The position numbers were made by a program, and so were the translations under genes. From the IMG/VR virus record IMGVR_UViG_3300042445_000153, positions 1 to 26,039 of that record: a DNA stretch of 26,039 nt. One strand, given 5' to 3'. The notes beneath the pieces were generated by a model that saw only the letters and a list, made by a program, of their open reading frames with translations, did not search any database and had not been told where the DNA came from. Position 1 is the first letter of the stretch; every line of letters begins with the position of its first letter. Source of the stretch: a virus. Below are positions 7,515 through 14,028 of the stretch, piece by piece.

Positions 7515-8042
7515 TTAAATTAATTCATAATCTTTATTTACGTAGTCCAAATAATCTTCACCTACATTTTCTTTTAAACGTTCTTTACAGTTTTTTATAG
7601 TACAAAAGATTGACCTAAGGCTAATTGTAGTTCCTTTTTGAAGCTCTCGCATTGTCATATTTTTGTCTCGGTATAAATCAAATAGCATTTTATCGTACCA
7701 CTCCCAACGTTTAGTCTCTTCATTTACTCTTTTAAGCAGTTCTCCGAAGGCTTCGTGTTCTTCTAAGGTATCTATTTGCTCCAACGTTAAAACCTCGCTT
7801 AAATCAACTTTTATAATTCTGCTCTTTTGTCGGTAAAAATCTACAAACAACGAGCGCAAAGTTAAATAAACATAATATTTATTTACTTGACCGTTAACAA
7901 TAACCGCTTTTTCTTTGTCTTTATTTAGAAATCTTATGTACATTTCTTGGACTAAATCCTCAGCATAAAAATCTTCACCAAAACTTTTAATCGTCCTTAT
8001 GTATTCTTTATGGTGCTTTGCTACTTGTTCAATCCAGTTCAT
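7515..8042 (-). CDS. Phage RNA polymerase sigma factor (ECF-like)
   Basis: 175 residues with the two-domain sigma-70 layout. Region 2 is about 26-75: YAEDLVQEMYIRFLNK for 2.1/2.2, and YVYLTLRSLFVDFYRQKSRI for 2.3/2.4. Region 4 is about 112-157, ending in an HTH (MTMRELQKGTTISLRSIFCTIKNCKERL). It would direct host core RNA polymerase to phage promoters, most plausibly the late genes, since it lies just before the packaging and tail block. It sits after a weak terminator-like hairpin. No anti-sigma gene is next to it. The cognate promoter was not found. Confidence 0.85.
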   Translation of the reverse strand: MNWIEQVAKHHKEYIRTIKSFGEDFYAEDLVQEMYIRFLNKDKEKAVIVNGQVNKYYVYLTLRSLFVDFYRQKSRIIKVDLSEVLTLEQIDTLEEHEAFGELLKRVNEETKRWEWYDKMLFDLYRDKNMTMRELQKGTTISLRSIFCTIKNCKERLKENVGEDYLDYVNKDYELI

Positions 8043-12211: not shown

Positions 12212-12247
12212 GTTAAGGTAGTTAAGGTTGTTAAGGTAGTTAAAACG
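12212..12247. repeat. 9-bp tandem repeat GTTAAGGTA x3 plus a partial unit
   Basis: GTTAAGGTA, GTTAAGGTT, GTTAAGGTA, then GTTAAAACG, which runs over the helicase stop codon. The middle unit differs by one base. Iteron-like or a slippage repeat. Confidence 0.75.
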
Positions 12248-13208
12248 GCACATCGCCTTTACTTTGTTTCATCTTTTCGCTAAACGAAAGTAATTCTTTT
12301 CCGTTTACTATATCGGGTTCAATCAAAGGTAGTTGTTTAGCTGGAAAACTATTTGAAATTGGTTTCGTGTTTCTGATTGGGTCAACTGAATTTATTTTAA
12401 ATCCTAAACCATTGTTAAATTCACACAATACAGGTTCATCTAATCTCGTATGCATTCCGCCGGTGTCCATGTCTTTAATCTTTTCTACGTTTACCATAGT
12501 GTAATACTTCATTGTTTCGTGTTTTATTAACCTATGAATTACAAACATATCATCACATCTATTTAAAAACGCCTTACCGCCCTCGACATGGTCTTTTAAC
12601 GGTGGTTTAAGGTGTCCTTTCCACATATGTCCATCTGCATATAAATTACCGCTCCTACCGCTTTCGCTATTTGGATGCGTGTTTATGTAAATTGTCATTC
12701 CTGATTCATTTACAAATTGCCGTGCCTGATTTAAAAATTGGTAATTACCTTCATAACTCATAGGTCGGTCAAGCCCTGTAAATGGGTCTATTAAACCAGC
12801 GTCGCAGTCGCTATCCTTAAACAGCTTTAAAATATCCGCAGGGGTATAAAGTTTGTCGTTAGGAATGAAGTTAAAATACTGTTCTAAGTAAGTTGCCGTG
12901 CTTAATATCTTTGAGTCTTCTATTTCGGTAAACTTTTGCCCTAAATACATTTGTATCATGTCACGTAAAATTTGTCCTTTTTGGTTTTCACCGCTCCAAA
13001 TACAAAAACGTAATTCGTGTTTTACTGCCAACGTCAAGAAGTACCAATTTATCCAATAGGTTTTACCTACGTTGTCATGACCTAAAATAATGTTTAGTTG
13101 TTTACGTTTAAACCTAAGGTGGTTATCCAAGTCGCAGTTAATGCCGTAACCCTTTTTTATTTTGCCGTGTTTATAGTCAAGCAAGTATTGAACCGCATCG
13201 CCTTTCAT
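12240..13208 (-). CDS. DnaB-like replicative helicase (RecA-fold ATPase)
   Basis: 322 residues. Walker A is GHDNVGKT at 43-50 after a beta strand (QLNIILG). A segment FCIWSGEN (68-75, Glu likely catalytic) follows, with Walker B DAGLIDPFTGLD at about 136-147, INTHPN (about 174-179) as a sensor-like strand, and DDMFVIHRL later. This is the RecA-type core of DnaB helicases without the N-terminal domain, as in many phage helicases. The C-terminus (about 265-322) is a linker ending in KGDVPF, perhaps a contact tail. It overlaps the replication protein gene (ATGA) and is followed by the candidate origin. Confidence 0.85.
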   Translation of the reverse strand: MKGDAVQYLLDYKHGKIKKGYGINCDLDNHLRFKRKQLNIILGHDNVGKTYWINWYFLTLAVKHELRFCIWSGENQKGQILRDMIQMYLGQKFTEIEDSKILSTATYLEQYFNFIPNDKLYTPADILKLFKDSDCDAGLIDPFTGLDRPMSYEGNYQFLNQARQFVNESGMTIYINTHPNSESGRSGNLYADGHMWKGHLKPPLKDHVEGGKAFLNRCDDMFVIHRLIKHETMKYYTMVNVEKIKDMDTGGMHTRLDEPVLCEFNNGLGFKINSVDPIRNTKPISNSFPAKQLPLIEPDIVNGKELLSFSEKMKQSKGDVPF

Positions 13209-13780
13209 AATCCTAATTGTTTGTTAACGTATTCTACTAAATGGTCGGTTTCTTCTTTTTTGTATTGTTTAGGGTTTCTACTAAACCACGTTCTTAACCT
13301 TTGAGAAATACCGAATGTTTTTTCTTTTTCAAATCTAAGTTTTTTATCATTCTCTCCGTGTTCAGTCCAATAGAAATAAAAATCGTTTAGCATATCCCTA
13401 CCATACTCATCTAAAAAAGGTTTAAGCGCATCAGCAAATTTTAATTTGCGTTCTTCTATATTTATTATTTTCTCTTTTACTTTCTCTTTCTCTTTTACTT
13501 GTATCGAAGGGTGTACTGAACCCCCTTGCCTACCCCCTTGCGTAGGGTCTTGGTTAGGGTTTAATAAAGTCTTTTTAGTTTTGTCTTCATATCCTTTAAC
13601 CTGCCTATCAATAGAATGCTTTTGAGATAAATAAGCAAACTTACTCATGCCTTCTAAATCCGTTTCAACTCCTGTAAATTGACGTTTCATTAAAGCATCG
13701 TAAAATGCTAATCTATCTTTGTCGTTTAATTCGTTTGCTACATCCCAGTAACTCCGATAAAAATTAAATCCTTCTCTCAT
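13205..13780 (-). CDS. Replication organiser / helicase-loader-like protein
   Basis: 191 residues. The N-terminal domain (about 1-65) begins EGFNFYRSYWDVANELNDKDRLAFYDALM, a pattern typical of DUF6291-like replication proteins. The middle is a low-complexity linker (Asn/Gln/Gly, then Lys/Glu, about 70-105). The C-terminal domain (about 115-191) carries LNDFYFYWTEHGENDKKLRFE and RLRTWFSRN, like the helicase-binding end of phage replisome organisers. It is coupled to the helicase gene. Transcription reaches it only past a terminator hairpin 17 bases upstream, so attenuation probably sets its level. Confidence 0.7.
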   Translation of the reverse strand: MREGFNFYRSYWDVANELNDKDRLAFYDALMKRQFTGVETDLEGMSKFAYLSQKHSIDRQVKGYEDKTKKTLLNPNQDPTQGGRQGGSVHPSIQVKEKEKVKEKIINIEERKLKFADALKPFLDEYGRDMLNDFYFYWTEHGENDKKLRFEKEKTFGISQRLRTWFSRNPKQYKKEETDHLVEYVNKQLGL

Positions 13781-13797: not shown

Positions 13798-13849
13798 AAA
13801 AAAACCCCTTGAAATCCTGTGCATCCTACCTCACATTCATTCAAAGGGT
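13798..13849 (-). terminator. Terminator/attenuator before the replication genes
   Basis: In the minus-strand RNA ACCCTTTGAA pairs with TTTCAAGGGGT (one wobble), closing a 26-nt loop that itself holds a TGTG/CACA inner stem. Seven U follow (13804-13798). The ATG of the replication gene is 17 bases later. It forms the 3' half of the two-hairpin RNA. Confidence 0.75.
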
Positions 13850-13890
13850 CAATAATACCTTATCGAGTTTATAATGTAGGATGAACTCGA
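13798..13890 (-). ncRNA. Two-hairpin RNA with 8-nt complementary loops (kissing-loop candidate)
   Basis: Hairpin A: stem TCGAGTT/AACTCGA (13890-13884 and 13869-13863), 14-nt loop containing CATCCTAC (13883-13876). Hairpin B: the terminator, whose inner TGTG/CACA stem presents GTAGGATG (13829-13822). The two loop octamers are perfect complements. A promoter box ends 3 bases before hairpin A, so the RNA would begin at or just before its stem and end in the U-run, giving about 93 nt. It could act as a stand-alone small RNA or as a leader controlling the replication operon. I do not recognise it as a named RNA family. Confidence 0.65.
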
Positions 13891-13893
13891 ATA

Positions 13894-13925
13894 CAAATAT
13901 AATAAATTTATTTAATCAAACTCAA
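13894..13925 (-). promoter_or_regulatory. Promoter of the two-hairpin RNA / replication operon
   Basis: Minus strand TATATTTG (13901-13894), with TTG at 13925-13923 (spacing 21). It lacks the 16-base spacer element of the early promoter family, so it is probably regulated differently. The -33 part overlaps the end of the 38-residue gene. Confidence 0.65.
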
Positions 13926-14028
13926 AATTTTTGTAAAAATTATTTGATATGTTAACACGGATTCTCCACCGCTTTATTTTACGATAGTCAATCTTTTGTT
14001 TAGGGTTGTACAATATAAGAACTCTCAT
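13912..14028 (-). CDS. Small basic protein (38 aa)
   Basis: Frame MRVLILYNPKQKIDYRKIKR, continuing WRIRVNISNNFYKNFEFD. Its ATG overlaps the stop of the 79-residue gene (ATGA), continuing the unbroken coupling of the early operon. It is strongly basic, with no Cys and no membrane helix. No family recognised. Real-gene status rests on the coupled start. Confidence 0.5.
   Translation of the reverse strand: MRVLILYNPKQKIDYRKIKRWRIRVNISNNFYKNFEFD

Follow-up and report, generated by a model that had tools for sequence, protein, structure and literature searches.

Layout of the leader region

The window, by which we mean the whole 26,039-nt stretch of virus record IMGVR_UViG_3300042445_000153 that was analysed, carries a gene for a DUF6291 protein on its minus strand (13205..13780, ATG at 13780), after which comes a helicase-like gene (12240-13208). 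The DUF6291 gene is the first gene behind a structured leader, for which the original prediction had described a promoter box, two hairpins (A and B), a run of seven U and then the ATG, and we found all of these parts in that order on the minus strand. The -7 promoter box TATATTTG is at 13894..13901 (-) and is of the Bacteroidota type TAnnTTTG, with a TTTG ~24 nt upstream of it (~13926-13923, -). Initiation had been predicted near 13888; the box itself occupies 13901-13894, and 13888 is better read as an approximate start site, which this promoter type would place at or just before hairpin A.

Hairpin A (13863..13890, -) would thus form the 5' end of the transcript. Its 7-bp stem, with arms at 13890-13884 and 13869-13863 (-), encloses a loop holding the octamer X, CATCCTAC (13876..13883, -). 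An A/U-rich linker (13851..13862, -) joins it to hairpin B (13803..13850, -), which consists of the outer stem of a terminator (5' arm at 13850-13840 (-), the partner arm ending at the U-run), a UGAA/GGAU internal loop, and a 4-bp inner stem whose apical loop presents the octamer Y, GTAGGATG (13822..13829, -). The U-run (U7) of this intrinsic terminator is at ~13798..13804 (-). As had been predicted, Y is the exact complement of X and both lie in hairpin loops; exact occurrences of CATCCTAC in the window were confined to the X and Y sites. From promoter to terminator the predicted RNA is roughly 95 nt long with a hairpin at each end, and its computed fold (-24.4 kcal/mol, z -2.5), in which both hairpins are present, was equalled by 3 of 200 shuffles. 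A 38-aa ORF (MRVLILYNPKQKIDYRKIKRWRIRVNISNNFYKNFEFD; window 13912-14028, -), which is below the 50-aa threshold of the ORF listing, overlaps with its end the region upstream of the leader promoter, and a similar ORF also precedes the leader in two relatives (L004 and L007).

The minus strand of the window has no TAnnTTTG box in the interval from 13894 to 13780, and since the terminator stands between the promoter and the ATG, the order of parts implies that the DUF6291 gene would be reached by read-through alone. At two other operons of the window (10708 and 8527) the promoter is followed by the ATG with no terminator between them, and at another the terminator (~15934) comes first, followed by the promoter (15844-15837) and the ATG (~15812). 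Because these ordinary operons lack a terminator between promoter and ATG, the arrangement at the leader does not appear accidental.

Three similar promoters (TTGTTATATTAAAAA...TATATTTGTyAAACAATTAAAA) are found in the window at ~10730, 8553 and 15860 (-), the last being a looser match; each lies directly before an ATG and contains an inverted TTGTT/AACAA repeat that looks like a shared operator. Elsewhere in the window, the region 7515-8042 (-) weakly matched families of phage RNA polymerase sigma factors and possibly encodes a late sigma factor.

Relatives, loop pairs and covariation

A search of viral contigs with the DUF6291 protein gave 31 loci. Most of those whose match reached the start of the protein had a leader upstream, with loop letters that differed from those of the window and were again complementary to each other (e.g., CCTTCGAC/GTCGAAGG, GAGTCTCA/TGAGACTC, GCTCTCAC/GTGAGAGC, and GGGCAG/CTGCCC). 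Pattern scans, which demanded a T-run and so would pass over terminator-less forms, found at least ~120 viral loci at which a promoter box is accompanied by complementary loops among the matches listed. These matches comprised ~45 loop pair types, this number being what remains of a list of 50 once a few chance hits and length variants are set aside. The original prediction had recognised no known RNA family in the leader, and Rfam release 15 bore this out, with no match at the leader of the window even at E<=5 and none reaching the gathering threshold in 10 relatives.

Hairpin B occurs in two forms. Class I has UGAA, a 4-bp stem, an 8-nt contact and GGAU, and class II has GAGUA opposite GAAA, a 3-bp stem and a 7-nt contact. 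The GAGUA/GAAA letters are kept by all members of the class II alignment and are what we take to be the sarcin-ricin / loop E internal loop motif, although here the motif would lie inside a terminator stem and class I has UGAA/GGAU instead. In some relatives (L241 and L242) the core is of class II but hairpin A is of the class I kind, and due to this mixture we consider that the two classes belong together. Also seen were class II terminator cores whose loops are not complementary (L153 at 6134, L240, L159, L175, and L259), with both loops of L153 and of L240 bearing an identical, not a complementary, sequence; none of these five cores has a start codon directly behind it, and for this reason they seem to represent a different use of the core.

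In alignments of 21 class I (A1) and 19 class II (A2) sequences, which were selected partly for complementary loops, 85.0% and 91.3% of the cells of the named structure were paired. Shuffles reached 62.6% and 68.8%, respectively, and a one-column displacement of the partner lowered pairing to 39–54%. The outer and inner stems of hairpin B both covary. Stem A also shows compensatory changes but is less well aligned: its class I form is paired in 56.3% of A1 cells, owing at least in part to a shift of the alignment at this point, and the stem is visible in individual sequences. Pairing in the loop-loop helix reached 98.8% of cells in class I and 87.3% in class II, with double changes at 7 of 8 and 6 of 7 pairs, respectively, and in class I this was the best-kept helix (164 Watson-Crick pairs, 1 G-U and 2 mismatches). 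The compensatory changes to be looked for in the stems and loop octamers of relatives were therefore found, in both stems and in the loop-loop helix.

For an unbiased test we used two patterns that fixed the backbone of hairpin B alone, with the loop given as N and hairpin A unspecified. A perfect upstream Watson-Crick partner for the entire loop accompanied every distinct element recovered (61/61, with 11 loop types). Judged by such comparisons, the complementarity is far above chance, since loops with different letters remain complementary in relatives. Of 42 class I contexts, 38 had a loop helix of exactly 8 bp, and of 38 class II contexts, 28 had one of 7 bp; in neither class does the helix often extend into the stems. 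Nothing would keep an antiterminator helix out of the stems, whereas a helix confined to the loops is what would be expected of a kissing contact. Pairing that is preserved by compensatory changes and ends at the loop edges agrees with the kissing-loop geometry first proposed for the leader, and argues for kissing, rather than alternating, pairing of X and Y.

X and Y are also inverted repeats adjoining a promoter, and could instead be operator half-sites for a DNA-binding protein, with no RNA structure involved; operator halves would change together too. We regard this as very improbable, however, because X and Y coincide precisely with the loops of stems which themselves covary, the outer stem of B includes G-U pairs (21 and 32 cells), the X-to-Y distance varies (43–57 bp) and shows no helical phasing, and conservation extends to the structured internal loops, which take two alternative forms.

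Genes behind the leader and its distribution

In essentially every relative a co-directional ATG lies 3–44 nt behind the U-run (an offset of 0, given for some relatives, is probably not the true start), and the promoter box ends 10 nt (median; interquartile 10–10) before the loop octamer. The succession expected of an attenuator leader, namely promoter, structured leader, intrinsic terminator and gene with no intervening promoter, is thus present in the window and in its relatives. The tie to a replication operon that was originally drawn holds for the DUF6291 and helicase-like genes of the window, but does not extend to the family as a whole: along with DUF6291 and other putative replication proteins, the genes behind the leader encode NUMOD4-HNH endonucleases, GIY-YIG-like proteins (named by eye, with no Pfam match), ParB-like proteins and small unknown proteins. 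At L059, L168, L201, L219, L226, L317, and L318 the leader accompanies a free-standing gene for an HNH (NUMOD4) or GIY-YIG-like endonuclease, and it may thus move together with homing endonucleases. Another conserved 5'UTR motif, AGTTATnGGTnATCTTAAAACCnTT, was seen between the leader and the ATG, just before the latter, in L213, L172, L156, L261, L383 and L390 (phi10:1 and phi19:1), and L384 (morran9-1); it often precedes a protein of 70–80 aa with the motif LDKxTAIKFxKxLRREI.

Diverged leaders were identified in several named phages, these being Cellulophaga phi10:1 and phi19:1 (loops GTACGAC/GTCGTAC, model E 1e-5), Flavobacterium 11b (CGGGCAGG/CCTGCCCG, 1.5e-4), Flavobacterium phage morran9-1 (GTGAGAAG/CTTCTCAC, 0.004), and Cellulophaga phi19:3 (CTCTCACAA/TTGTGAGAG, 0.004). 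As the search models did not include the loop pairing, the complementarity of the loops in these phages is independent evidence. A candidate leader in Nekkels_1 (ATTGGAA/TTCCAAT) was seen by eye only, and no leader was found in the remaining named phages searched. Direct DNA similarity to named phages gave chance-level matches alone because the family is too diverged, and protein neighbours served instead.

Searches of 84,980 bacterial and archaeal species genomes returned 0 matches to the strict class II pattern and 3 to the class I pattern (two in Brevibacillus and one in Flavihumibacter), with a few expected by chance. There is no convincing copy of the leader in these ~85,000 genomes, an absence that is approximate since the patterns were strict. 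The many copies in viral contigs relative to next to none in bacteria and archaea point to virus genomes that are not commonly integrated in sequenced hosts.

Viral records (n=49) mostly contain one copy of the leader. Seven have two distinct copies, ~1.7–10 kb apart, and their loops differ wherever both are readable (one loop of record G042 could not be resolved), which is not significant alone because the family has many loop types. One gene lineage keeps its loop type, along with hairpin A and the linker, across gene identities of 80–99%, and phages with 96% identical genes can bear different leaders. Since loop, hairpin A and linker stay together while near-identical genes can have another leader, leaders are exchanged as units. 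Fast point-by-point diversification of the loop was ruled out, the loop being swapped with its own hairpin A and linker.

A candidate attenuator and its rivals

The leader is probably a real RNA switch that controls how often the following gene is read, and of the explanations we considered, the one we favour, with some confidence, is that it is a cis-acting attenuator with a kissing contact between the 5' hairpin and the terminator hairpin. A host-type promoter would start the RNA at or adjoining hairpin A, and Y, on emerging, would pair with X before the 3' arm of hairpin B exists. Once this arm has been made, hairpin B would form and most polymerases would be released at the U-run, with those passing the terminator going on to read the gene that starts 3–44 nt downstream. 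The terminator likely has to close around or against the early X-Y pairing, and in such a kinetic race the X-Y contact would set, and perhaps regulate, how often the terminator forms in time. Under a nested equilibrium folding model, in which the kissing state cannot be scored, nascent prefixes whose 3' end falls after Y but before the 3' arm of B had a median probability of X-Y pairing of 0.93–0.99, largely because X and Y are complementary anyway; in the full RNA this probability was 0–0.01, with stems A and B winning. No conserved ligand or protein partner of the leader was identified.

The original prediction had left two options, a 5' attenuator or a stand-alone small RNA, and it is the first that gains from the start codon found closely behind the terminator in essentially all relatives. 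Were the leader a stand-alone or dual-use small RNA, the ~95-nt terminated product would accumulate and act in trans, and downstream expression would be leakage. The compact promoter-to-terminator RNA with both ends in hairpins fits this idea, as does a U-run resembling that of small RNAs. We nevertheless consider it unlikely, as the X and Y loops are consumed by pairing with each other, a gene practically always starts directly behind the leader (at most 44 nt away), and loop-complementary octamer sites elsewhere in the phage DNA show no excess (1+2 compared with 2.6+2.6 expected), so that no region pairing with targets elsewhere was apparent within the phage DNA.

The put RNA of phage HK022 attaches to RNA polymerase at the beta' zinc-binding domain and suppresses terminators further downstream in its operon. 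It is phage-encoded and cis-acting after an early promoter, and has two stem-loops in ~70 nt (PMC9378689). By analogy, the folded leader might stay on RNA polymerase, which would then ignore the leader's own terminator and later ones. The leader resembles put in being phage-encoded, in its cis position, and in having two hairpins directly after a promoter, presumably an early one, that heads a phage operon; putL is similar in place and size (PMC9378689). However, the second hairpin of the leader is an intrinsic terminator ending in a U-run, a feature absent from the description of put, and its loops pair mutually, kissing having 0 mentions in the put paper (PMC9378689). The promoter is of the Bacteroidota type, and a simple scan of the minus strand from 13798 to 6100 found no terminator-like site to pass. 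A put-type antiterminator therefore seems quite doubtful to us, and both it and a trans-acting small RNA are less supported than the attenuator.

There is also a slim chance that the leader is a self-specific dosage sensor, the loops of different leader molecules pairing with one another when many genome copies are transcribed and thereby changing termination. Such a sensor would be in keeping with near-identical phages exchanging whole leader alleles that differ in their loops, and with the different loops where one phage has two copies; if true, each phage would measure its own copy number or resist relatives with the same loop.

The cis-acting attenuator that we favour has the same succession of promoter, leader, terminator and start codon as premature-terminator attenuators, and likewise needs read-through. 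It differs from them in that no leader peptide, tRNA or metabolite pocket was recognised, in that the control contact would be an 8- or 7-bp loop-loop helix joining the 5'-end hairpin to the terminator hairpin, and in that the family has many loop specificities. Specificity that resides in complementary hairpin loops and differs between relatives is also a feature of plasmid kissing-loop control RNAs, such as ColE1 RNAI/RNAII and the antisense attenuation of pT181/pIP501, whereas in the phage leader, which is not known to involve an antisense RNA, both loops are in one sense transcript. A search of the open-access literature found no description of such an RNA, and the family is apparently undescribed; going by the sequences, what would be new is the loop-loop design and the diversity of its specificities, the function itself appearing attenuator-like.

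The leader family is frequent in viruses of Bacteroidota, and in its members the 5'-terminal hairpin would pair with the terminator hairpin through the latter's loop. The family provides ~45 natural loop pairs, many of them set in backbones that hardly vary, and the cultured Cellulophaga and Flavobacterium phages allow direct tests of the mechanism. It also bears on the timing of replication genes, about which little is known for Bacteroidota phages.
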